Part shown: one piece after another, positions 1,535 to 36,590 of the stretch
Layout of the letters: the number at the start of each line of letters is the position of its first letter
How positions within the stretch are numbered: position 1 is the first letter of the stretch
Assembly: GCF_004363075.1 (NCBI RefSeq)
Contig: NZ_SNYN01000001.1
Coordinates: 287,938 to 351,937 of the forward strand
Origin: Actinorugispora endophytica
Lineage (GTDB): Bacteria > Actinomycetota > Actinomycetes > Streptosporangiales > Streptosporangiaceae
Length of the DNA stretch: 64,000 nt
Reading direction: 5' to 3'
Position numbers and translations under genes: made by a program
The notes under the pieces: generated by a model
Databases searched by the model: none
What the model was told of the DNA's origin: nothing
Seen by the model: the letters and a program-made list of their open reading frames with translations, nothing else

Positions 1535-3013
1535 ATGCGCAGCGGGCAGCGAGGCTCTCGGGCGCTGGCGACCGGCGCGGCCCTGCTGCTCGCCGCCACC
1601 GCCTGCGCCGACACCCCCGAACCGGCTCCGGAACCGACCACGCCGCAGCCGCCGCCCACGGTGTACGAGGGCGAGGTCCCGCCCGGCCTGGCCGAGGAGC
1701 CGCTGCGCTTCCTGCACGGCGGCGAGAGCCCCGGCCAGGAGATCCTCGCCGACCCCCTGGGCGTACGCATCCAGGCGGTCGGCGACGCCTTCCTGATCAG
1801 CTCCAACAGCGAGGAGCGGCACCTGCTGCAGGGCGCCGGCGACGGGCGGCTCCTGTGGGAGGGCGCCTCCCGGGTGGAGCGCTTCACCCGGGACGGCTCC
1901 GGCTCGGACGTGTTCGAGGTGAGCACGAGCGACGGCGACGCGAGCGTCCGGACGGTCCTGGACCAGACCGGCGAGCGGGTGTGGACCGGGACGGACCCGC
2001 GCGAGAGCTACCTCAACGGCCTGGTGGTCCGCGCTCCCGCCGACTGGAGCGCGGGGGAGCCGTACGGCGAGTTCTCGGTCGGCGGCCCCGGCGACGGCGC
2101 CGAGTGGACGTACGAGTTCACCGAACCCGCCGAACCGGCCGAGGACGAGCCGGAGGCGGGGTCCGAAGAGGAGCCCGGGGACGGGGGCCCGCCGGAGGAC
2201 GCTGAGGAGGACGCCGGCCACATGGGCGTCCCGGTGGCCGCGCGCGGCGACGTGGTGCTCCTGGACGACGGCGTCGGGATGCTCCAGGCCCGCGACATCT
2301 CGGACGAGGGCGCGCTGCTGTGGAGCGTCTCCGGCGACTCCCCCGGGTTCGAGGACGAGGCGCTGTCCCGCCCCCGGCCCCGGCTGGTCGGCTTCTACGA
2401 GCTCCCCGAGGGCGAAGGGGCGGAGGAGTCGGAGGAGCCCTCCGGCACCCCCTCCCCGGACCGGGACTCCGAAGAGCGGGCCGGGCCGCGCGAGACCGCG
2501 CTGATCCGCTGGGGCAGCCCCGAGGAGCCCTCCATGCTGTCCCTGCACGACCTGGGCGACGGCGAACTGCTGTGGTCGCTGCGCGAGCCCGGCACCAACG
2601 CCGCCGACGGCGGGTTCGACAGCGCCCCGGTCGCGGGCGTCGTCTGGGATCCCGCCACCGGGACCCTGCTGCTGCCGCAGACCGGCGGCCCGACCCCGAT
2701 GGTCGCCGTGGACCTGGCCTCCGGCGAGCCGCTCTGGGAGTTCGAGGACCGGGACGAGCGCTCCCTCGCCCCCCGCTTCGCGCTCTCGGGCTACGTGTAC
2801 GGCGACTCGCGCGCCGACGACGGCGTCTCCCAGGTGGTGCTGGAGGCCGAGACCAAGGACCTGGTCGTCGACGACCTTCCCGGCTACGTGGAGGCGGTCA
2901 CCGCCGACGGCCACGCCCTGGTCGTCCAGAACCGCCAGCGCTTCGTCTTCGCCCCCGAGACCCCGATCGGACCGACCGCCACCCCGCCCCCGACCCCGAG
3001 CGAGCAGGACTAG
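1535..3013 (+). CDS. Secreted lipoprotein with PQQ-like beta-propeller
   Basis: A 492-residue predicted lipoprotein. The signal peptide has a basic start, a hydrophobic run ALATGAALLLAATAC and a lipidation cysteine near residue 25, then a Pro/Glu linker. The body has recurring beta-propeller strands of PQQ/YVTN type such as DGRLLWEGAS, GERVWTGTD, GALLWSVSGD, GELLWSLREP and GEPLWEFEDRD. Acidic, Pro-rich insertions interrupt the blades around residues 190-230 and 290-320. Such proteins are usually surface scaffolds; no enzyme motif is visible. The stop codon TAG is the first triplet of a large repeat (see 3011-3367). Confidence 0.82.
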   Translation: MRSGQRGSRALATGAALLLAATACADTPEPAPEPTTPQPPPTVYEGEVPPGLAEEPLRFLHGGESPGQEILADPLGVRIQAVGDAFLISSNSEERHLLQGAGDGRLLWEGASRVERFTRDGSGSDVFEVSTSDGDASVRTVLDQTGERVWTGTDPRESYLNGLVVRAPADWSAGEPYGEFSVGGPGDGAEWTYEFTEPAEPAEDEPEAGSEEEPGDGGPPEDAEEDAGHMGVPVAARGDVVLLDDGVGMLQARDISDEGALLWSVSGDSPGFEDEALSRPRPRLVGFYELPEGEGAEESEEPSGTPSPDRDSEERAGPRETALIRWGSPEEPSMLSLHDLGDGELLWSLREPGTNAADGGFDSAPVAGVVWDPATGTLLLPQTGGPTPMVAVDLASGEPLWEFEDRDERSLAPRFALSGYVYGDSRADDGVSQVVLEAETKDLVVDDLPGYVEAVTADGHALVVQNRQRFVFAPETPIGPTATPPPTPSEQD

Positions 3014-3367
3014 GGAACCTCCGGCGCGGGGGTGAATTCGGGCACCGGTGGTTTTGTTGACGGTCGTGGGCTTTCTGCCCGTTTCGGGGCCGGGAAGGGC
3101 GGAAAGCCCGTGATCATTCCGGGTGGGTGCGGAACCGCCCTCGAATGTCCGGTGATCTTGCTGTCCCCCCCCCCCCCCGAAGTCAAGGTTCTCGGGGGGA
3201 AACAGCAAGATCACCAACGGAAACCACGCGAAACGGACGTCGTGGGCGCGGCCCCGACCCGCCCCCGCCGTCGCCGCCCGCCGTCACCTCGCGATCCGCG
3301 TGGCGTGAGGCCGAAAAACCTCCGAAGCATCGGTGCCCGAATTCACACCCGCGCCGGAGGTTCCCTA
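3011..3367. repeat. Composite palindromic repeat, copy 1
   Basis: This is the whole gap between the lipoprotein and mutA. The ends are 40-base inverted arms (3011-3050 and 3328-3367) that differ at only a few positions and begin TAGGGAACCTCCGGCGCGGG. Inside are hairpin type B (3068-3109, arms GGGCTTTCTGCCC/GGGCGGAAAGCCC), a second hairpin (3151-3215) and a core of about 90 bases (about 3240-3320) that recurs in copies 2 and 3. The first triplet is the stop codon of the lipoprotein gene. No convincing protein is encoded. It is probably a terminator-bearing mobile repeat; whether it moves itself is inference. Confidence 0.85.
3151..3215. repeat. Inner hairpin of repeat copy 1 with a 14-base poly-C tract
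   Basis: The arms GGTGATCTTGCTGT and ACAGCAAGATCACC pair perfectly. Inside the left arm is a run of 14 C at 3165-3178, facing only six G in the right arm. The terminal GGTGATCTTG/CAAGATCACC is shared with the stand-alone hairpins at 20.9 and 25.8 kb, while the rest of the stem differs. The homopolymer is either a real unstable tract or a sequencing artefact. Confidence 0.8.
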
Positions 3368-17290: not shown

Positions 17291-17905
17291 GTGCGCACCA
17301 CACCGACCGTCATCGGGATCGCCCTGTCCGCTCTGCTGCTCACCGGCTGCGAGAACGCGGCGACCAACCCCGACGGACCGCCCGAGCCGGGGCCCACCGC
17401 CCTTCCCGGGACCGCCGAGTCGTCCGGGCAGTCGCTCCAGGTCTCGGAGTCCTTCGCGGCCTGGAGCGAGGGGGCGACCGCCGTCACCTACGACGAGGAG
17501 GCCGTCCCCGCGGAGTCCACCATCCAGGTGTCGGTGGCCCCCGCGGGCTCGGCCACCGGCTTCACCCTCTCCGTGACGGGCCTGCGACCGGACCGCGACT
17601 ACGGCGCCCACCTGCACACCGAGCCCTGCGGCGAGGACCCGGCCGACTCGGGGCCGCACTACCAGAACGAGGCCGACCCCGAGCAGCCCTCCACCGACCC
17701 CGCCTACGCCAACCCCCGGAACGAGGTCTGGCTGGACTTCCGCACCGACGCCGAGGGCGCCGCCTCCGCCCAGACGTCCGTCACCTGGGCGCCCCGCGCG
17801 GGCGAGGCCAACTCGGTGGTGATCCACAAGGAGCACACCCAGACCGCAGCCGGCCACGCCGGAACGGCCGGAGACCGCCTGGCCTGCGTCAACGTCCCCC
17901 TGTAG
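17291..17905 (+). CDS. Superoxide dismutase-like lipoprotein, probably copper-only
   Basis: A 204-residue lipoprotein of the Cu/Zn-SOD fold. The lipobox LLLTGC puts the lipidated cysteine near residue 20. The four copper histidines are present: two in GAHLHTEPCG, one in SGPHYQNE and one in VVIHKEH. The disulfide cysteines are in EPCG and RLACVN. The loop that normally holds the zinc ligands reads PAYANPRNEVWLDF and has no histidines, so zinc binding should be lost, as in mycobacterial SodC. It probably removes superoxide outside the membrane. The GTG at 17291 opens the signal peptide. Its stop TAG is the first triplet of repeat copy 2. Confidence 0.85.
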   Translation: MRTTPTVIGIALSALLLTGCENAATNPDGPPEPGPTALPGTAESSGQSLQVSESFAAWSEGATAVTYDEEAVPAESTIQVSVAPAGSATGFTLSVTGLRPDRDYGAHLHTEPCGEDPADSGPHYQNEADPEQPSTDPAYANPRNEVWLDFRTDAEGAASAQTSVTWAPRAGEANSVVIHKEHTQTAAGHAGTAGDRLACVNVPL

Positions 17906-18164
17906 GGAACCTTCGGCGCGGGGGTGGTTCGGCGTGCCGGTGCTTCGGGTGGGTCTTTCGGCCTCACGCCACGCGCATCGCGAGGTCACGGCGGGCGGCG
18001 ACGGCGGGTGAGGGCCGAGGCCGCGCCCATGACGTCCGTCGCGTGAGGGGTTCGTTGACGGTCGTGGGCTTTCCGCCCTTCCCGGCCCCGAAACGGGCGG
18101 AAAACCCACGACCGTCAACAAAACCACCGGTGCCCGAATTCACCCCCGCGCCGGAACCTCCATA
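17903..18164. repeat. Composite palindromic repeat, copy 2
   Basis: It has the same architecture as the copy at 3.0 kb but in the opposite orientation. The left arm, starting at the SOD stop TAG, reads TAGGGAACCTTCGGCGCGGG. Then come the conserved core (about 17955-18050) and a perfect 25-base hairpin of type B (18054-18119, GTTGACGGTCGTGGGCTTTC...). The right arm holds GGTGCCCGAATTCACCCC. At the right end the motif reads GGAACCTCC where the other copies have its reverse complement GGAGGTTCC. It fills the gap between SOD and the PfkB gene. Confidence 0.85.
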
Positions 18165-20887: not shown

Positions 20888-20969
20888 CCCTCTTCCCGGT
20901 GATCTTGACGTTTTCGGGGCCTCAGAAGCGGTTGAGACCCCGAAAAGGTCAAGATCACCGGGAAGAGGG
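20888..20969. terminator. Stand-alone type A hairpin, bidirectional terminator
   Basis: A long stem beginning CCCTCTTCCCGGTGATCTTG and ending with its complement fills the 89-base gap between two convergent genes almost exactly, seven bases from one stop and one base from the other. The inner stem GGGGTCTCA-type sequence is shared with 25815-25886 and 35165-35236. Confidence 0.85.
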
Positions 20970-20970
20970 G

Positions 20971-21378
20971 TCAGCGGGGCTTGACCGTGCCCATCGTCCT
21001 CGTGACGGTGATCTCGATGACGACGCGCTCGGGGTTGGGCCTCGGCGGGCGGTAGCGGCGGGTGTACCGCTCCACCGCGTCGGCGACGGCCGCCGGGTCG
21101 TCGTTGACGACCGCGGTCCCCTCCAGGGTCGCCCAGCGCGCTCCGTCGGCCTGGCTCACCGCGACGACGGCCCCCGGCCCGCCGGCGCGGACGTTGCGCG
21201 CCTTCCTGCTGCCCCCGCTGGTGATGACGCGGGCGACGCCGGCCTCGCTGTCGTAGGTGACCCCGACGGGGACGAGGTGGGGCGTGCCGTCCGGCCGCGC
21301 CGTGGACAGGAAGCCGATGTGGCGCTCCTCCCAGAACGCGAGGAAGGCGGGGTCGGAGCGCAGGTGGGGTGCTGCCAT
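20971..21378 (-). CDS. PPOX-class (F420/FMN) pyridoxamine-oxidase-like protein
   Basis: A 135-residue split-beta-barrel flavin or F420 protein. Family blocks are FWEERHIGFLSTARPDGTPH, VPVGVTYD, SRKARNVRAGG and the tail NPERVVIEI. Such proteins reduce unsaturated substrates with F420H2, or act as heme or FMN binders. The ATG at 21378 begins the family-like region; an upstream in-frame start would run through the tRNA terminator hairpin. It is convergent with the GH4 gene. Confidence 0.85.
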   Translation of the reverse strand: MAAPHLRSDPAFLAFWEERHIGFLSTARPDGTPHLVPVGVTYDSEAGVARVITSGGSRKARNVRAGGPGAVVAVSQADGARWATLEGTAVVNDDPAAVADAVERYTRRYRPPRPNPERVVIEITVTRTMGTVKPR

Positions 21379-21436
21379 GGTCTTCACTCCCGGTGTCGGC
21401 CGCCGGCGTCCGCGCCCGCGTCGGCGGGGCGTCAAC

Positions 21437-21474
21437 GTGAAAGGCCCCTCCCGAAGCCGGGAAGGGCCTTTCAC
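21437..21474 (-). terminator. Terminator after tRNA-Thr
   Basis: A near-perfect 17-base stem (GTGAAAGGCCCCTCCCG with CGGGAAGGGCCTTTCAC) lies seven bases downstream of the tRNA on the minus strand. Confidence 0.85.
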
Positions 21475-21480
21475 CTGGGA

Positions 21481-21553
21481 GCCGCCTAAGGGAATCGAAC
21501 CCTTGACCTACGCATTACGAGTGCGTCGCTCTGGCCGACTGAGCTAAGGCGGC
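21481..21553 (-). tRNA. tRNA-Thr (anticodon CGU)
   Basis: The minus strand folds as a cloverleaf. The acceptor GCCGCCT pairs with AGGCGGC, the D arm is GCTCAGTCGGCCAGAGC, the anticodon arm ACGCA-CTCGTAA-TGCGT has anticodon CGT, and the T arm contains TTCGATTC. It is 73 nt with no encoded CCA. Confidence 0.97.
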
Positions 21554-21648
21554 GTGGCCTCGTGGCGAGGCGCAATCAGTCTAGCGTGTGCGGCGGTGTG
21601 GCCGGAACGGATACCGGTCCGGTGTCGGCGGGCCGGGCGGGTCCGGTG

Positions 21649-23205
21649 TCAGCAGGCCAGGCGGGACGGCAGGTCCCGCGTGTCGGGGAAGCGGTCGAGG
21701 TAGGTGGCGAGGGCGAAGTCGAGGAAGCGGGACACGTCGGCGATGTTGCTGACCAGCCCCGTCGAGACGCGGATCGCGCCTCCCGACGGCATGCCCAGCG
21801 CGCTCATGACGTCGTCGAGGGTGGCGGCGGTGCGCAGGGCCCGGGAGGCCAGAACGTCCCGGTCCAGCTCGAAGGCCGCCTCGCCCGCCCCCGGGTTGCA
21901 GAAGCAGCCGGTCCGCAGGGAGATGCGCCGGGCGGCCGCGTCACGGGCGACGACGCGCTCGTCGACGACCGTCCCCGCCGGGTCGAGGAAGTTGAAGGCG
22001 ACCGTGCCCCCGCGCGCCTCGGTGGTGACCGGCCCGTAGACGCGCGCCAGCGGCTCCCCGGTGGCGTGCCGGGCCGCGGTCAGGCGGTCCAGCAGCCACC
22101 CGGTGAGGCATCGGACACGGGCGCGCACGGTCTCCACCCCGATTCCGGACAGCCAGCGCAGTCCCACCTCCACGTCCGGGATCGAGAGGTAGTTGAGGGT
22201 GCCGTCCTCGAAGGCGGACTCCCCTTCGGCCGGGTGGTGCCAGTCCCCGGCCACGCTGGCGGACCGGATCGTGCCGCCCGAGAACCACGGGCGCTCCAGC
22301 CTGGCCAGTGCCTCCCTGCGCACCACCAGGCAGCCCAGGCCCGTCGGGTAACCGAAGATCTTGTACCAGCTCACCGGCATGAAGTCGGGTTTGGTCTCGC
22401 CCAGGTCGATCCGGTTGGCGGGCGCGTAGGCGGCCGCGTCCAGGAGCACGTCGAAGCCGTGGTCATGGGCGGTCTCGATCCACCCCAGGGGGTGCTGGAC
22501 CCCGGTGAAGTTGCTCTGCGCCGGATAGGCGAGGAGCCCCGACCGCCCGGCGGGGCGCAGCGTCGGCGGCACCGGGCGGCTCAGCGCGGCGCGCACCCCT
22601 TCCTCGTCCCCGCGGAGCTCGGGGCCGGTGAGGCCGACCGTGTCGATCTGCGCCCCCCGCGAGCGCGCGAACTCGCGGATGCCGTTCACCGAGTTGTGGT
22701 TGTCCACCAGCTGCACGAACCGCCGCCCCGGCTGGAACGGGTACGCCTCCCCGACCAGCCGGCACGCCCCCGTCGCGTTGGCGGTGAAGACGGCCGCGTA
22801 CTCCTCCGGCTGGGCGTTGAAGTAGCGCAGCACCGCGGCCCGCGCCCGCTCCACGAGCTCGGTCGAGGCCGTCGACGCCGGGCTGGTCGAGTGCGGGTTC
22901 CCGAAGCATCCGCGCGCCACCCGCTGCGCGTGCGCCCGGATCTGCGCCTCGGCGGGCAGGCCGCCCCCGGTGTAGTCCAGGTAGAGGTGGCCGTTCTCGT
23001 CCAGGTAGCGGTATTCGGCCGCCCGCAGCTCGTCCAGCCCGGCCGTGTCGACGTACCCCGGATACGCGTCCAGGAAGTCCGTCTGCTCCGGGACCCGGGG
23101 TCCCGCCGATGTCTGTACCGCCGTCGCGGCCGTACGCCCCGAGGCTGCGCCGCCGTCCTCCGGCCCGTGGGAAAGCGGGGCCGGAGGGGATTCCGTCCGC
23201 TTCAT
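21649..23205 (-). CDS. Class V PLP aminotransferase, MoCo-sulfurase-like
   Basis: A 518-residue PLP enzyme of the cysteine-desulfurase fold. The PLP lysine is in PVSWYKIFGYPTGLG, the phosphate-binding loop in FTANATGACRLVGEAYPF, and the sulfur-carrying cysteines in LRTGCFCNPGAGE. This pairing matches the N-terminal domain of eukaryotic molybdenum-cofactor sulfurases better than IscS/SufS. The C-terminal MOSC domain of those proteins is absent. The first 40 residues are low-complexity. No molybdenum genes are nearby, so the acceptor is unknown. Confidence 0.85.
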   Translation of the reverse strand: MKRTESPPAPLSHGPEDGGAASGRTAATAVQTSAGPRVPEQTDFLDAYPGYVDTAGLDELRAAEYRYLDENGHLYLDYTGGGLPAEAQIRAHAQRVARGCFGNPHSTSPASTASTELVERARAAVLRYFNAQPEEYAAVFTANATGACRLVGEAYPFQPGRRFVQLVDNHNSVNGIREFARSRGAQIDTVGLTGPELRGDEEGVRAALSRPVPPTLRPAGRSGLLAYPAQSNFTGVQHPLGWIETAHDHGFDVLLDAAAYAPANRIDLGETKPDFMPVSWYKIFGYPTGLGCLVVRREALARLERPWFSGGTIRSASVAGDWHHPAEGESAFEDGTLNYLSIPDVEVGLRWLSGIGVETVRARVRCLTGWLLDRLTAARHATGEPLARVYGPVTTEARGGTVAFNFLDPAGTVVDERVVARDAAARRISLRTGCFCNPGAGEAAFELDRDVLASRALRTAATLDDVMSALGMPSGGAIRVSTGLVSNIADVSRFLDFALATYLDRFPDTRDLPSRLAC

Positions 23206-23406
23206 GTCTCCCCCCGCACTTCAGTCCCCGGGAACGGACGTTCCCTCAACGGAGGGGTGCGACCCGGCGCGGCCCGGACTTGGCGAAGTTTTGGTCCGGG
23301 CAGGCGCTCCGTCGCCGACCGGTTGCGGGTCTCCGCTCCGCCGGTGGCCGTGTGCGAGGCCCGGGCCCGGCGCACGGCCACCGGCGGAGGCCCGGGAGCG
23401 AGGCCC

Positions 23407-24945
23407 CTACGGGAGGTCGCAGACCGTCCCCTCCGCGGGCGCCGTGGTCTCCAGGAGGTAGGTGTCGACGGCCTGGTCGACGCAGTCGTCCCCCGACCGG
23501 TAGGCGGTGTGGCCGTCCCCCTCCCAGGTGAGCAGCACGCCCGTGTCCAGGGCCGCGGCCAGGTCCTCCGACCACTGGTACGGCGTGGCCGAGTCCCGGG
23601 TGGTGCCCACGACCAGGATCGGCGGCGCCCCGTCGCCGTCCAGCTCGATCGGCTCGGCCACCGCCTCCTCCGGCCAGTACGCACACGTCAGCGCGCCCCA
23701 GGCCAACGTCGGACCGAACAGCGGCGAGGTCTCGGCGGCGGTGCGCGCGGCCTCCTCGTACACGGCGATGTCACGCGGGCTCTCGCGGTCCGCGCAGTTC
23801 ACCGCCACCAGCACGGCGGTGGAGTTCTCGTACTCGTCGCGGTTCTTGCGGGCGTACAGCATGTCGCCGAGCTGCAGCAGCGCGGTGCCGTCTCCGCTGT
23901 CGATCGCGTCGGCCAGGCCCGCGCGCACGTCCGGCCAGAACGACTCGCTGTACAGCGCCGCGAGTACGCCCATCTCCGTGCGGGGCCGGTTGACCTCGCG
24001 GTCGTCGGCCCGGTTCTCCAGCGGTTCGCGGGCGGCCTGTTCCAGCAGTTCGCCGATCCGGTCGACGCCCTCCTCGACGGTGGTGTCGGGGCCGTCGGAC
24101 AGCGGGCAGTCGGGCAGGGCGAGGCAGTCCCCGACGAAGGCGTTCAGCGCCGTGGTGAAGCCGCCCGCCTGCTCGACGCTGATCTCCAGCTGGTCGCCCT
24201 CGGGGTCGACGGCGCCGTCCAGCACCAGCGCGCGCACGTTCCGCGGGAACAGCTCCGCGTAGTAGGTGCCGATGGAGGTGCCGTACGACTTGCCGAGGTA
24301 GGTGAGCTTGTCGTCGCCGAGCACGGCCCGCAGCACGTCCATGTCCCGCGCCACGTCGGCGGTGCCCACGTGCGCCAGGAGGTCGCCGGACCGGTCCTGG
24401 CAGGCCTGGACGAACCCGCGGTTGGCCTCCTCCAGCTCCGCCAGCCCTTCGTCCGTGACCTCGGTGGGGTCTCCGTCACCGTCCTCGCTGTCCATCTCCA
24501 GGCCGAGGAAGTCGTCCAGCTCCTCCGTTTCGAGGCAGTACAGCGGGTTGCTCCGGCCGACTCCGCGCGGGTCGAAGCCGACGACGTCGAACCGCTCGCG
24601 GACCTGCTCGGAGATGACGCCATGGGCCGCTCCGACGTATTCGACGCCCGAACCGCCGGGCCCGCCGGGGTTGACCAGCAGCGAACCGATCCGGTCCGCC
24701 CCCGAGGCGGGCAGCCGCTTCACCGCGATCTCCAGCCGCCGCCCGTCGGGGTCCTCGTAGTCCATCGGCACCTCGTAGGCGCCGCACTCGAAGCCGCCTC
24801 CGCAGTCCTCCCAGTCGATCTCCTGGGTGTGGAACGCGGACAGCGGGTCGGCCGAGGCGCCCGGCCCACCGGCCCCCTCTCCCGAGCATCCCGCCGCGAC
24901 CAGCACGACGGCCAGCGCTCCGGTGATCCAGCCAGTTGTCTTCAC
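23407..24945 (-). CDS. Secreted alpha/beta-hydrolase, tripeptidyl aminopeptidase-like lipoprotein
   Basis: A 512-residue secreted peptidase of the SCO/SlpD-E type. The lipobox is LVAAGC (Cys near residue 20). The hydrolase core has LLVNPGGPGGSG (oxyanion), the nucleophile serine in LGKSYGTSIG, and the C-terminal Asp and His in TTRDSATPYQW and GDGHTAYRSG. The GTG at 24945 overlaps the ricT stop by four bases (GTGA), so it is translationally coupled to that unrelated gene. It probably trims peptides outside the cell. Confidence 0.9.
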   Translation of the reverse strand: MKTTGWITGALAVVLVAAGCSGEGAGGPGASADPLSAFHTQEIDWEDCGGGFECGAYEVPMDYEDPDGRRLEIAVKRLPASGADRIGSLLVNPGGPGGSGVEYVGAAHGVISEQVRERFDVVGFDPRGVGRSNPLYCLETEELDDFLGLEMDSEDGDGDPTEVTDEGLAELEEANRGFVQACQDRSGDLLAHVGTADVARDMDVLRAVLGDDKLTYLGKSYGTSIGTYYAELFPRNVRALVLDGAVDPEGDQLEISVEQAGGFTTALNAFVGDCLALPDCPLSDGPDTTVEEGVDRIGELLEQAAREPLENRADDREVNRPRTEMGVLAALYSESFWPDVRAGLADAIDSGDGTALLQLGDMLYARKNRDEYENSTAVLVAVNCADRESPRDIAVYEEAARTAAETSPLFGPTLAWGALTCAYWPEEAVAEPIELDGDGAPPILVVGTTRDSATPYQWSEDLAAALDTGVLLTWEGDGHTAYRSGDDCVDQAVDTYLLETTAPAEGTVCDLP

Positions 24946-25790
24946 GCGCTCCCGCTCTCGGTGCCGTCGTCGCCCCCATGGGAGCCCTCGTATGCCTGCC
25001 GCGGACCGCACACGTCCGAGCGGTCGCACGCGCAGCGCCGCCCGCTCGCGCTGAGGCGGACGACCACCTTCTCGGCGGGAACATTGTGCCCGACGACGAC
25101 CCCGTCCCCGTCCGGGGTCCGCACCCTGCCGCCCGCGGGGACGTCCGCCTTGAACTCCTGGTACAGCGGGTGCTCGTACTTGAGGCAGCACATGAGCTTG
25201 CCGCACGCGCCCGAGATCCGCATCGGGTTCGCGGGAAGGCCCTGGTCCTTGGCCATGCGCATCGTCACGGGCTCGAAGTCCTTGAGGAAGGTCGCGCAGC
25301 ACAGGTCCCGCCCGCACGGGCCGATCCCGCCCTGCAGGCGGGCCTCGTCGCGCGCGGCGACCTGGCGCAGCCTCACCCGCGCCTCCAGGGTCCTGGAGAG
25401 TTCGCGCACGAGGGCCCGGAAGTCCACCCGGGACGGCGCGGAGAAGTAGACGGTGAAGGCGTTGCGCGCGGCGACGTAGTCGACGCCCACGATCTTCATC
25501 CGCAGTCCCCGGGCACGGATCAGCCGCTTGGCCACCGGCCGCACCTCGGCCCGCCGCCGCCGGACGTACTCGTCCCTGGCGAGGTCGTCCTCGGTGGCGA
25601 TCCCCTCGCACACCGGCAGCCCGTCGACCTCCTCGCTCACCCACTGCGGCGCCCAGACGCACTCGGCGACCTCGGGCCCCTCGTCGGTCGGCACGAGCAC
25701 CTTGTCCCCGACCCGCGGGCTGGTCGCCCCCGGGTCGAGGTAGTGGAGCCGCCCGTACCGTTCGAAGCTCACCGCCATCATCATGGGCAT
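24942..25790 (-). CDS. ricT: PSP1-domain protein (RicT/YaaT-like)
   Basis: A 282-residue PSP1 protein. The cysteine-rich signature IGPCGRDLCCATFL and GACGKLMCCLKYEH binds an Fe-S cluster in Bacillus RicT, which works with RicA/RicF in mRNA processing. No such partners are seen here. The start region MPMMMAVSFERYG has three possible ATGs. In actinomycetes this gene usually follows holB, as here, with a strong hairpin between the two. Confidence 0.9.
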   Translation of the reverse strand: MPMMMAVSFERYGRLHYLDPGATSPRVGDKVLVPTDEGPEVAECVWAPQWVSEEVDGLPVCEGIATEDDLARDEYVRRRRAEVRPVAKRLIRARGLRMKIVGVDYVAARNAFTVYFSAPSRVDFRALVRELSRTLEARVRLRQVAARDEARLQGGIGPCGRDLCCATFLKDFEPVTMRMAKDQGLPANPMRISGACGKLMCCLKYEHPLYQEFKADVPAGGRVRTPDGDGVVVGHNVPAEKVVVRLSASGRRCACDRSDVCGPRQAYEGSHGGDDGTESGSA

Positions 25791-25814
25791 GGGAGAAGCC
25801 TAGGCGATGGCCCT

Positions 25815-25886
25815 CTCGCGGTGATCTTGACTTTTCCGGGGTCTCAACCGCTTCTGAGACCCCGGAAAGGTCAAGATCACCGCGAG
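25815..25886. terminator. Stand-alone type A hairpin between holB and ricT
   Basis: A near-perfect stem of about 32 bases (CTCGCGGTGATCTTGACTTT... with its complement) and an 8-base loop. It begins three bases after the holB stop and lies 25 bases before the ricT start. Its core GGGGTCTCA stem is the same module as at 20.9 and 35.2 kb. Confidence 0.85.
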
Positions 25887-29478: not shown

Positions 29479-29587
29479 GATGATCGTGACGCCAGCGTCC
29501 CTCGAAACGGACACCATGGAACGCTGACGTCACGATCATCAACGAAGCCCTCACGCGGCGGACGGCCCCCGCGCCCGAGGATCCCTA
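29479..29587. repeat. Composite palindromic repeat, short copy at the topA 3' end
   Basis: Read on the minus strand from the topA stop: TAGGGATCCTCGGGCGCGGG, then GTCCGCCGCGTGAGGGCTTC, which matches the core edge of copy 2 (GTCCGTCGCGTGAGGGGTTC). Then comes a hairpin (29479-29540, GATGATCGTGACGCCAGCGT...) whose sequence is unlike types A and B. The rest of the topA to MFS-tmk gap (29283-29478) holds no gene that I can see. Confidence 0.8.
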
Positions 29588-35021: not shown

Positions 35022-35273
35022 CAGGGATTCTCCGGCGCGGGGGTGTTCCGCGCACCGGCGTTGGGAGGGTTTCTCGGCCTCATGCCGTGCGGATCGCGAG
35101 GTCACGGCGGGCGGCGACGGCGGGTGCGGCCCCGGACTGCGGGAAGGTGTCCGCTTCCTGGCACTCTCCGGTGATCTTGACCTTTTCGGGGTCTCAGAGA
35201 CGGTTGAGACCCCGAAAAGGTCAAGATCACCGGGAGGCAGCGCCTGAAACGCCCCCGCGCCGGAGGTTCCCTA
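35022..35273. repeat. Composite palindromic repeat, copy 3
   Basis: The outer arms are AGGGATTCTCCGGCGCGGGG at the left and CCCCCGCGCCGGAGGTTCCC at the right. The right end contains the TAG stop of the M20 peptidase on the minus strand. The core (about 35085-35135, GGATCGCGAGGTCACGGCGG...) matches copies 1 and 2. The inner hairpin is type A (35165-35236, GGTGATCTTGACCTTTTCGG...), not the type B found in copies 1 and 2. Confidence 0.85.
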
Positions 35274-36590
35274 GCTGAGGTCGATGAAGCGGTCCAGGAC
35301 ACGCGTTCCGAACTGGAGGGCGTCCACCGGGACGCGCTCGTCCACACCGTGGAACATCCCCGAGAAGTTCAGCTCCGGCGGAAGGCGCAGCGGCGCGAAC
35401 CCGAAGTTCCGGATGCCCAGCTCGGCGAAGGCCTTCGCGTCGGTGCCCCCCGACAGGCAGTAGGGGACGGCCATGGCTCCGGGGTCCTCGGCGAGCAGGG
35501 CCTCGGTCATGGCGTTGACGATGCCGCCGGTGAACCCGGTCTCCACGGCGGGCAGGTGCTGGATGAACTCGCGGGTGACCCTGGGCCCCAGCAACCGGTC
35601 GACGTCGGCGAAGAACTCCTCCTCCAGACCGGGCAGGAAGCGCCCGTCCACCTGGGCGGTGGCCTCGCCCGGGATGACGTTGGCCTTGTACCCGCCCGCC
35701 AGGACCGTGGGGTTGACCGAGTTGCGCAGGGTCGCGCCGATCATGCTGGCGACCGGTCCGAGCCTGGCGACGGTGGACTCGACGTCGTCCTCGCTGAACT
35801 CGATGCCGAACGCCTCGCACACCTCTTCGAGGAAGGTCCGCACGGTCTTGGTCAGCCGGACGGGGAACTCGTGCCGCCCGAGGCGGGCCACCGCCGCGGC
35901 CAGCTCGGTCACCGCGTTGTCGTCGTTGACCATCGAGCCGTGCCCCGCGGTCCCGCGCGCGGTGAGCCGCATCCAGGCGAGGCCCTTCTCGGCGGTCTCG
36001 ATGAGGTACATCCGGCGGCCCTCGCCGACGGTGACGCTGAACCCGCCGACCTCGCTGATCGCCTCGGTGCAGTCGGCGAACAGCTCGGGGTGCTCCCTGA
36101 CCAGCCAGTGCGCGCCGTACGCCCCGCCCGCCTCCTCGTCGGCGAGGAACGCCAGCACGATGTCCCGCGGGGGTTTGCGCCCCTCCCGCAGCCTCTGGCG
36201 CACGACCGCCAGCATCATGGCGTCCATGTCCTTCATGTCCACGGCGCCGCGGCCCCAGACGCACCCGTCGGCGACCTCGCCGGCGAACGGGTGGTGCGTC
36301 CAGTCGTCGGCGTTGGCCGGCACGACGTCCAGGTGCCCCTGCAGCAGCAGCGGCGGCCGGCTCGGGTCGGCCCCCTCGATCCGCGCCACCAGGCTGCTGC
36401 GCCCCGGGTGCGGCTCGTAGATCTCACTCGCCACCCCGACCTCGTCGAGCCTGGCCGCGACGTACTCGGCCGCGACCCGCTCCCCCGGCCCCGAGTGGTC
36501 CCCGTAGTTGGACGTGTCGATCGCGATGAGCTCCCGGCACAGATCCGCCACCTCGGCCCCGGCGCCGTTCACTCCGCCCTTGTCACCCAT
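35271..36590 (-). CDS. M20-family metallopeptidase
   Basis: A 439-residue zinc peptidase of the M20 (ArgE/DapE/CPG2) family. The metal ligands are His in LQGHLDVVPA, the bridging Asp in GRGAVDMKDMD, the Glu pair in LADEEAGGAYGA and the C-terminal His in MFHGVDERV. The dimerisation domain is inserted from about 190 to 320. There is no signal peptide, so it is a cytoplasmic dipeptidase or deacylase. The stop TAG is part of repeat copy 3. Confidence 0.93.
   Translation of the reverse strand: MGDKGGVNGAGAEVADLCRELIAIDTSNYGDHSGPGERVAAEYVAARLDEVGVASEIYEPHPGRSSLVARIEGADPSRPPLLLQGHLDVVPANADDWTHHPFAGEVADGCVWGRGAVDMKDMDAMMLAVVRQRLREGRKPPRDIVLAFLADEEAGGAYGAHWLVREHPELFADCTEAISEVGGFSVTVGEGRRMYLIETAEKGLAWMRLTARGTAGHGSMVNDDNAVTELAAAVARLGRHEFPVRLTKTVRTFLEEVCEAFGIEFSEDDVESTVARLGPVASMIGATLRNSVNPTVLAGGYKANVIPGEATAQVDGRFLPGLEEEFFADVDRLLGPRVTREFIQHLPAVETGFTGGIVNAMTEALLAEDPGAMAVPYCLSGGTDAKAFAELGIRNFGFAPLRLPPELNFSGMFHGVDERVPVDALQFGTRVLDRFIDLS

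Follow-up and report, generated by a model that had tools for sequence, protein, structure and literature searches.

A dispersed family of palindromes with conserved ends behind genes of Actinorugispora endophytica and other actinomycetes

The genome of the actinomycete Actinorugispora endophytica (5,253,007 bases, or 5.25 Mb, in 44 contigs) carries about one hundred copies of a palindrome with conserved ends, several of which lie in a stretch of 64,000 nt of contig NZ_SNYN01000001.1 (positions 287,938 to 351,937 of the forward strand), hereafter called the window. The copies are of near-fixed length, show compensatory change between their arms and are placed behind gene ends, and many of them sit within larger repeats, some of which are miniature inverted-repeat transposable elements (MITEs) of IS630-like type. 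We consider it fairly probable that they are bidirectional 3'-end hairpins, the arms of which are homogenised at the DNA level and which are partly mobile as MITE cargo. Together with the palindromes having the same ends in other genomes, the roughly one hundred copies behind gene ends point to a little-known portable signal for transcript ends; no description of the palindrome family was found in open-licence PMC texts.

A previous reading of the window, hereafter the sequence-only reading, had reported near-perfect long stems at 20888-20969 and 25815-25886 and the same module at a third place, and this description is borne out by our analysis. The arms of the first hairpin (20888-20924 and 20933-20969) are 37 nt long and 95% complementary, those of the second (25815-25846 and 25855-25886) 32 nt and 97%, and those of the third, at 35168-35233 (35168-35196 and 35205-35233), 29 nt and 100%; a core of 62 nt, GGTGATCTTGAC...GTCAAGATCACC, is common to all three. 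The copies of this genome have three classes of stem with common ends, namely A (CTTTTCGGGGTCTCA), B (CTGTTTCCCCC) and C (ACGCCAGCGTTC), and two further members of the family lie within the window, one with a class B stem (3151-3215) and one with a class C stem (29479-29540). Folded as RNA, the hairpins at 20888, 25815 and 35168 reach -70.8, -62.7 and -60.1 kcal/mol (z -10.2, -9.9 and -12.0), with means of -22 to -33 kcal/mol for shuffled sequences, and the class C hairpin has a z of -8.5. The hairpins had also been said to fill their intergenic gaps exactly, which is nearly true of the first: the stops of a GH4 glycosidase gene (20881) and of a convergent PNPOx-like gene (20971) are 89 bases apart, and the hairpin takes up 82 of these. 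It is not true of the second, which does start three bases past the holB stop (25889), as had been noted, and fills 72 of 98 gap bases, leaving 26 free.

The genome-wide search that the same reading had proposed did return further copies: 42 with a strict pattern of 12-base ends (44-74 nt allowed; 39 copies of 62 nt and 3 of 61 nt), 97 with 7-base ends (GGTGATC-N42-60-GATCACC; a few look coding) and 101 with R/K/Y ends. The reversed pattern gave 0 matches in each case, so that a chance origin of the copies is rejected. A covariance model built from 22 sequences, four of these from relatives, produced at least 150 strand matches in the same genome, all scored ones at E <=1.3e-11. The 99 copies considered below were drawn from among the matches listed, with exclusion of two coding look-alikes (C3:321200 and C5:182388) and retention of one locus, L153, in which only 14 of 25 pairs matched. 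Their cores range from 56 to 65 nt, 84 of the 99 being of 62 nt. The exact-type 12-mer occurs at 160 sites in 367,100 bases of partly overlapping sequence (the loci fetched from this genome plus the window); 24 sites have no full partner and only two of these (L152:2244 and L183:2898) fall outside a hairpin core. Terminators formed by DNA uptake sequences or uptake signal sequences resemble the present hairpins in that genes are followed by inverted pairs of a conserved 10-12-mer, but the near absence of the 12-mer outside hairpins sets the latter apart, and this type was rejected. Among 15 loci searched against Rfam, the sole match above the gathering score was a tRNA. The GGTGATCTTG pattern was present in no viral contig searched and one core had no blastn match in plasmid and phage records, on which grounds a phage or plasmid origin was rejected too.

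Gene calls at the loci, based on codon usage as learnt from the window, place 43 of the 99 copies in convergent, 51 in codirectional and 4 in divergent gaps (one is unclassified) and none within a gene, once the two look-alikes are set aside; the gap is thus bordered by a gene 3' end in 94 of the 98 classifiable cases. Other gaps of at least 60 nt comprise 3 convergent, 38 codirectional and 32 divergent ones in the same loci, and 7, 20 and 7, respectively, in the window, so that divergent gaps are depleted among the copies against either background (p=2e-10 and p=0.006). Fifty-three copies stand alone, at a median of 18 nt from the nearest stop codon, and the other 46, about half, have a repeated flank of at least 40 nt. 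In the stand-alone set the two flanks of a copy go on pairing past the core, the mean perfect run being 4.15 as compared with 1.92 when flanks are swapped (by a one-mismatch measure, 0 of 5000 permutations were as high), which is not the case for the other 46 copies (2.13 versus 2.71). Insertion of the palindrome into older terminator hairpins may be one source of such paired flanks. A comparable placement is seen in the 64 copies studied from genus g9 (genomes G072 and G212; L262, at a contig end, was dropped from the position analysis of relatives), with 33 convergent, 27 codirectional and 4 divergent gaps (p=5e-6 for the divergent share) and median distances to the nearest stop of 16.5 nt in G072 and 20 nt in G212. 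Twelve copies of G208 comprise 3 convergent, 7 codirectional and 2 unclassified ones. (G072, G208 and G176 are probably N. potens, N. terrae and N. alkaliphila, the names used here).

The distribution of the family is patchy. The pattern GGTGATCKTG-N36-46 matches in 20 of 341 family genomes, and a class-wide sample has matches in 10 of 296 genomes, figures that include A. endophytica itself and some single matches that look coding. Within the family, genus g46 has 31 matches in N. terrae, 5 in G196, 4 in G174, 3 each in N. alkaliphila and G181 and 2 in G183, while G212 of genus g9 has 6; the class-wide matches include a Frankiaceae metagenome-assembled genome or MAG (G457) as well as G447 and G440 (10 and 3 copies of 58 nt). 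The match in G433 falls inside a gene. A scan of named records gave at least 84 stretches, and among the 29 examined 23 were palindromes and 6 were not, the former coming from Nocardiopsis (21) and one Frankiaceae MAG (2). These palindromes measure 58-62 nt and have the same ends, G[GA]TGATC[KT]TG, with lineage-specific interiors; ends and length are therefore nearly kept between lineages while interiors differ, and the earlier statement that sequence conservation exceeds what a terminator needs agrees with the retention of the outer 10 bp across genera. Strand matches to the covariance model are numerous in N. potens (at least 150), G212 (143), G071 (113), G001 (51), G006 (21), G055 (17) and G133 (12), and few in N. 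terrae (2), G211 (1) and G053 (2), the relative with the most similar holB; all these counts are lower bounds, those of G001, G055, G133 and most of G071 being based on score alone.

Pairing within the palindrome has been retained through extensive sequence change. In the alignment of 22 sequences, 96.3% of the cells are paired, versus 37-53% in slid controls, and 17 of the 25 pairs have changed on both sides, giving 90 double-changed cells. Of the 1664 cells in the 64 copies of genus g9, 180 are double-changed and Watson-Crick and 11 are non-Watson-Crick; the corresponding values for the 82 class A copies of A. endophytica are 61 and 61 in 2132. Because the model used to find copies (R1) favours well-paired forms of 62 nt, the pairing figures of the sets found with it lean upward. 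Comparison of shared sites in G212 and N. potens gives a similar picture: all five pairs that differ in the holB gap are compensated, as are all six in a second shared gap, with none broken, and in a third, almost identical gap there are two base differences, both breaking pairs. At holB, the palindrome of A. endophytica differs from that of G212 by nine compensated pairs and one broken, and from that of N. potens by four compensated and one broken. Of 30 relatives searched, G212 and N. potens are the two with a palindrome behind holB, in both cases with the PSP1-family gene as neighbour; the remaining 28 showed neither this neighbour of holB nor, within 200 nt, a palindrome. Apart from holB, which was found separately, an orthology comparison of 99 loci of A. 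endophytica, 43 of N. potens and 22 of G212 matched only L019 and L284 on both sides between A. endophytica and N. potens, and independent arrival is likely there since in A. endophytica a MITE-type end of the copy falls on the stop codon. One-sided matches between the two genomes were L010-L289, L150-L287 and L048-L255, at 54-83% identity, plus two more below 47%; with G212, no orthologous pair emerged from the 99 and 22 loci compared.

Paralogous loci offer another view of the arms. Six of them (L006, L022, L162, L180, L188 and L199) have near-identical gene ends, presumably encoding a HATPase-like protein, at 16-27 nt from the palindrome. By eye, L022 and L162 differ at stem pairs 11, 12 and 19, each on both arms, and the loop of L162 is exactly inverted in L006 and its kin; such differences would be expected from copying between arms or from inversion. 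Since ends and near-fixed length persist while the interiors drift yet stay paired, orthologous sites lend themselves to a test of whether palindromes are homogenised at the DNA level.

These observations lead us to the following scheme for a dispersed family of palindromes, mostly of 58-62 nt, whose outer arms (G-N-TGATC-[KT]-TG) are conserved and whose interiors are complementary and specific to a lineage. Transcripts arriving from both directions would most probably have the palindromes as their 3' ends. A stem of about 29-37 bp could stop or anchor transcript ends, either by termination without a U-tract or by blocking 3'-5' decay after the action of Rho, and may insulate the neighbouring genes from each other. 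Both arms would be kept complementary by arm-to-arm copying at the DNA level (template switch or gene conversion) in concert with selection, and a putative factor may read the conserved ends. From their position and their placement with respect to both strands, a function of the hairpins as terminators is plausible, and a 3'-end role in general is what we infer.

The features of classical terminators are present in part. A stable hairpin shortly past the stop codon is canonical for intrinsic (Rho-independent) terminators and likens the palindromes to the U-less type of mycobacteria, but they differ from intrinsic terminators in having no U-tract, a conserved outer sequence and the nature of a dispersed repeat family. 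Past 137 transcript-oriented hairpin ends the mean number of T in the first 12 nt is 0.49, and a simple terminator scan listed no terminator-like site at the hairpins. A canonical intrinsic terminator is thus ruled out by the absent U-tract, and termination as such is plausible from position and structure. A review on mycobacterial transcription describes terminators without poly-U tail near the stop codon, while titles in its reference list point both ways, some to a dispensable and some to a required U-tract (PMC12288462). Since U-tracts are scarce in high-GC actinomycetes, according to that review, the ending of transcripts in these bacteria is poorly settled (PMC12288462). A family that can be recognised by sequence, with roughly one hundred natural copies standing alone or carried by MITEs, would give a ready test set for it. 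That the hairpins are ordinary U-less terminators, alike by chance or through recent duplication, would fit their placement behind stops and the type discussed for mycobacteria in that review (PMC12288462); the sharing of ends and length by other actinomycete families with unrelated interiors, and copy numbers far above those of controls, render this very improbable.

Several results weigh against bidirectional 3'-end hairpins as we propose them. Only one of the 137 transcript-oriented ends has at least 5 T per 8 nt within about 28 nt (the same measure after the stops of 52 window genes gives 0); the median distance to the stop is 63.5 nt for the twelve N. terrae copies, and certain other lineages have copies that are hundreds of nt away (L030, L034, L029 and L358) or, at the single loci L110 and L033, in divergent gaps. 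Among the single loci viewed, L249 did not match the pattern, and L352 and L073 are one place. Paired flanks, moreover, were found in A. endophytica only and not in N. potens, G212 or N. terrae. On the transcript strand of its codirectional copies G-U mismatches number 9 versus 19 for A-C (4 versus 2 in the g9 copies), and selection at the RNA level was rejected as no G-U excess exists in the former. Stability of the RNA, which would predict such an excess, therefore does not explain the pairing by itself, and the palindrome would seem to be maintained at the DNA level or for both strands. Lastly, the outer 10 bp persist between genera and families around a free interior, a feature that a plain terminator does not need; nor does such a terminator explain this conservation together with near-fixed length and interiors changing in step. 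A factor reading the ends, or a step of recombination or transposition using them, would do so, though neither was seen. Tentatively, one may go further and envisage a 3'-end system in which G[GA]TGATC[KT]TG ends, set at a near-fixed spacing of 58-62 nt, are read by a dedicated factor and arm-to-arm DNA copying keeps the free interior palindromic, each lineage having its own version of the cassette and one having loaded it into MITEs at stop codons. The same conserved ends and near-fixed spacing, with the symmetry between strands and the lack of G-U preference, could instead reflect a protein site or structural element acting at the DNA level at convergent or 3' ends, with secondary effects on RNA; bacterial interspersed mosaic elements (BIMEs) are such sites for gyrase. 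We regard this as quite unlikely, as there is no known binding protein and the exact-type 12-mer is nearly limited to the palindromes.

Mobility is the other aspect that the sequence-only reading had raised, and it applies to the family in part: there are many copies and a share of them resides in IS630-like MITEs, but the stand-alone copies have no target duplication. Those larger repeats whose ends are intact are IS630-like MITEs. When up to 3 mismatches are allowed, the ends of the larger repeats, TAGGGARNCTCCGGCGCGGGG, match 158 times on one strand and 150 times on the other (reversed control, 4 and 5), and the repeats show the inverted ends with TA at the boundary that are a feature of IS630-type MITEs. 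Paired ends define 27 elements, 143-855 nt in length, in the window and the fetched loci together; 23 contain a hairpin-like match, which is an upper figure since the loose pattern also catches a second hairpin module. In the same sequences, 41 of 78 distinct MITE ends examined fall on a TAG that terminates the outer gene, whereas among the 109 TA dinucleotides that are non-coding in the window stop codons account for 13; TAG stops are also found in 59 of 137 genes ending at a hairpin versus 24 of 128 other genes of the same loci (p=2e-5). A single DDE_3 (PF13358) match, at C6:273475, exceeds the cut-off, and the end-like site with it has 5 differing positions. A DDE_3 fragment of 27.6 bits (cut-off 28.6) lies beside an end-like site with 4 such differences, adjoining a MITE with a class B palindrome; no intact DDE_3 element with both ends was seen in the genome. 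The IS630/Tc1-mariner group is indicated by DDE_3 and by TA as target. Part of the copies resembles MITEs of this group in inverted ends and adjacent TA, and perhaps in having a DDE_3 relative with similar ends, but the palindrome differs from them in occurring also without MITE ends, in A. endophytica, genus g9 and N. terrae. Because it occurs without MITE ends in other genera, we prefer the order in which the palindrome was captured by the MITE.

Might the palindrome itself be a selfish mini-transposon, with GGTGATC[KT]TG as terminal inverted repeat, a transposase acting in trans and a 3'-end position merely tolerated by selection? Conserved ends and length around a free interior, lineage-specific amplification and the patchy spread among family and class genomes would all fit. 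Direct repeats of 3 nt or more at the core ends, however, are found in none of the 99 copies of A. endophytica and none of the 64 of genus g9, and those of 2 nt in 2 (0.10 expected) and 10 (13.2 expected), respectively; the stand-alone copies therefore give no sign of mobility of their own. No empty site was seen at four places compared with G053 and G055, where intergenic DNA or neighbouring genes are too different to be read, and some sites are common to different genera. On balance we judge this alternative unlikely. More doubtful still is the suggestion of repetitive extragenic palindromic (REP) elements moved by a linked REP-associated tyrosine transposase (RAYT), which the multi-copy extragenic nature of the palindromes would fit. 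The Y1 transposase domain (Y1_Tnp, PF01797) has no match in the 44 contigs, whereas 5 of 14 control genomes match; the GTAG tag is absent within 8 nt of the ends of all 99 copies, and the counts of GTAG, GTGG and CGTC end tags are 0, 0 and 3 in these and 0, 0 and 2 in the 64 g9 copies. The core of 62 nt also exceeds the 20-40 bp given for REP palindromes in PMC3733652. An identity with REP elements of RAYTs was rejected on these three counts, and we hold it to be exceedingly improbable. What the family has in common with REPs and BIMEs is the form of short extragenic palindromes in high copy close to gene ends, some in composite repeats; besides length, tag and transposase, it departs from them in the conservation of its ends while the interior varies by lineage. 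With REP, known Rfam families and the canonical intrinsic terminator excluded by the features tested, the family is best filed as a variant of dispersed extragenic palindromes. The members of the family in the window and their MITEs are collected in table 1.

Table 1. Palindromes and palindrome-carrying MITEs in the window
Feature	Position	Strand	Remarks
IS630-like MITE	3011..3367	.	357 nt; carries class B palindrome; left-hand TAG is the stop codon of gene 1535-3013
Class B palindrome in MITE	3151..3215	.	65 nt; expanded C run; L020
Stand-alone class A palindrome	20888..20969	.	62-nt core 20898-20959; 10-bp site-specific stem extension; L003
Stand-alone class A palindrome	25815..25886	.	core 25820-25881; between holB stop and PSP1-family gene; L004
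Class C palindrome	29479..29540	.	62 nt; GATGATCGTGAC ends; MITE-type end at 29586 (topoisomerase gene stop codon)
IS630-like MITE	35022..35273	.	252 nt; carries palindrome; right-hand TAG is the stop codon of M20 peptidase gene 35271-36590
Class A palindrome in MITE	35168..35233	.	core 35170-35231; L005

At the window MITE ends 3011, 17903, 29586 and 35272, the TAG is the stop codon of the adjoining gene. The second large hairpin module common to MITEs, GTTGACGGTCGTGGGCTTTCYGCCC, is found in the window at 17903-18164 and 3050-3132, the element at 17903-18164 having this module without the GGTGATC palindrome. The loops of class C palindromes (29479-29540, L018 and L008) contain AAACGGACA, a motif that otherwise lies outside many class A and B palindromes, as if the modules had been turned inside out. 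The tetranucleotide CTAG is depleted about tenfold in the window (1-64000), with 14 sites seen versus 152.6 expected from base composition, and six of these 14 sites are stop codons.

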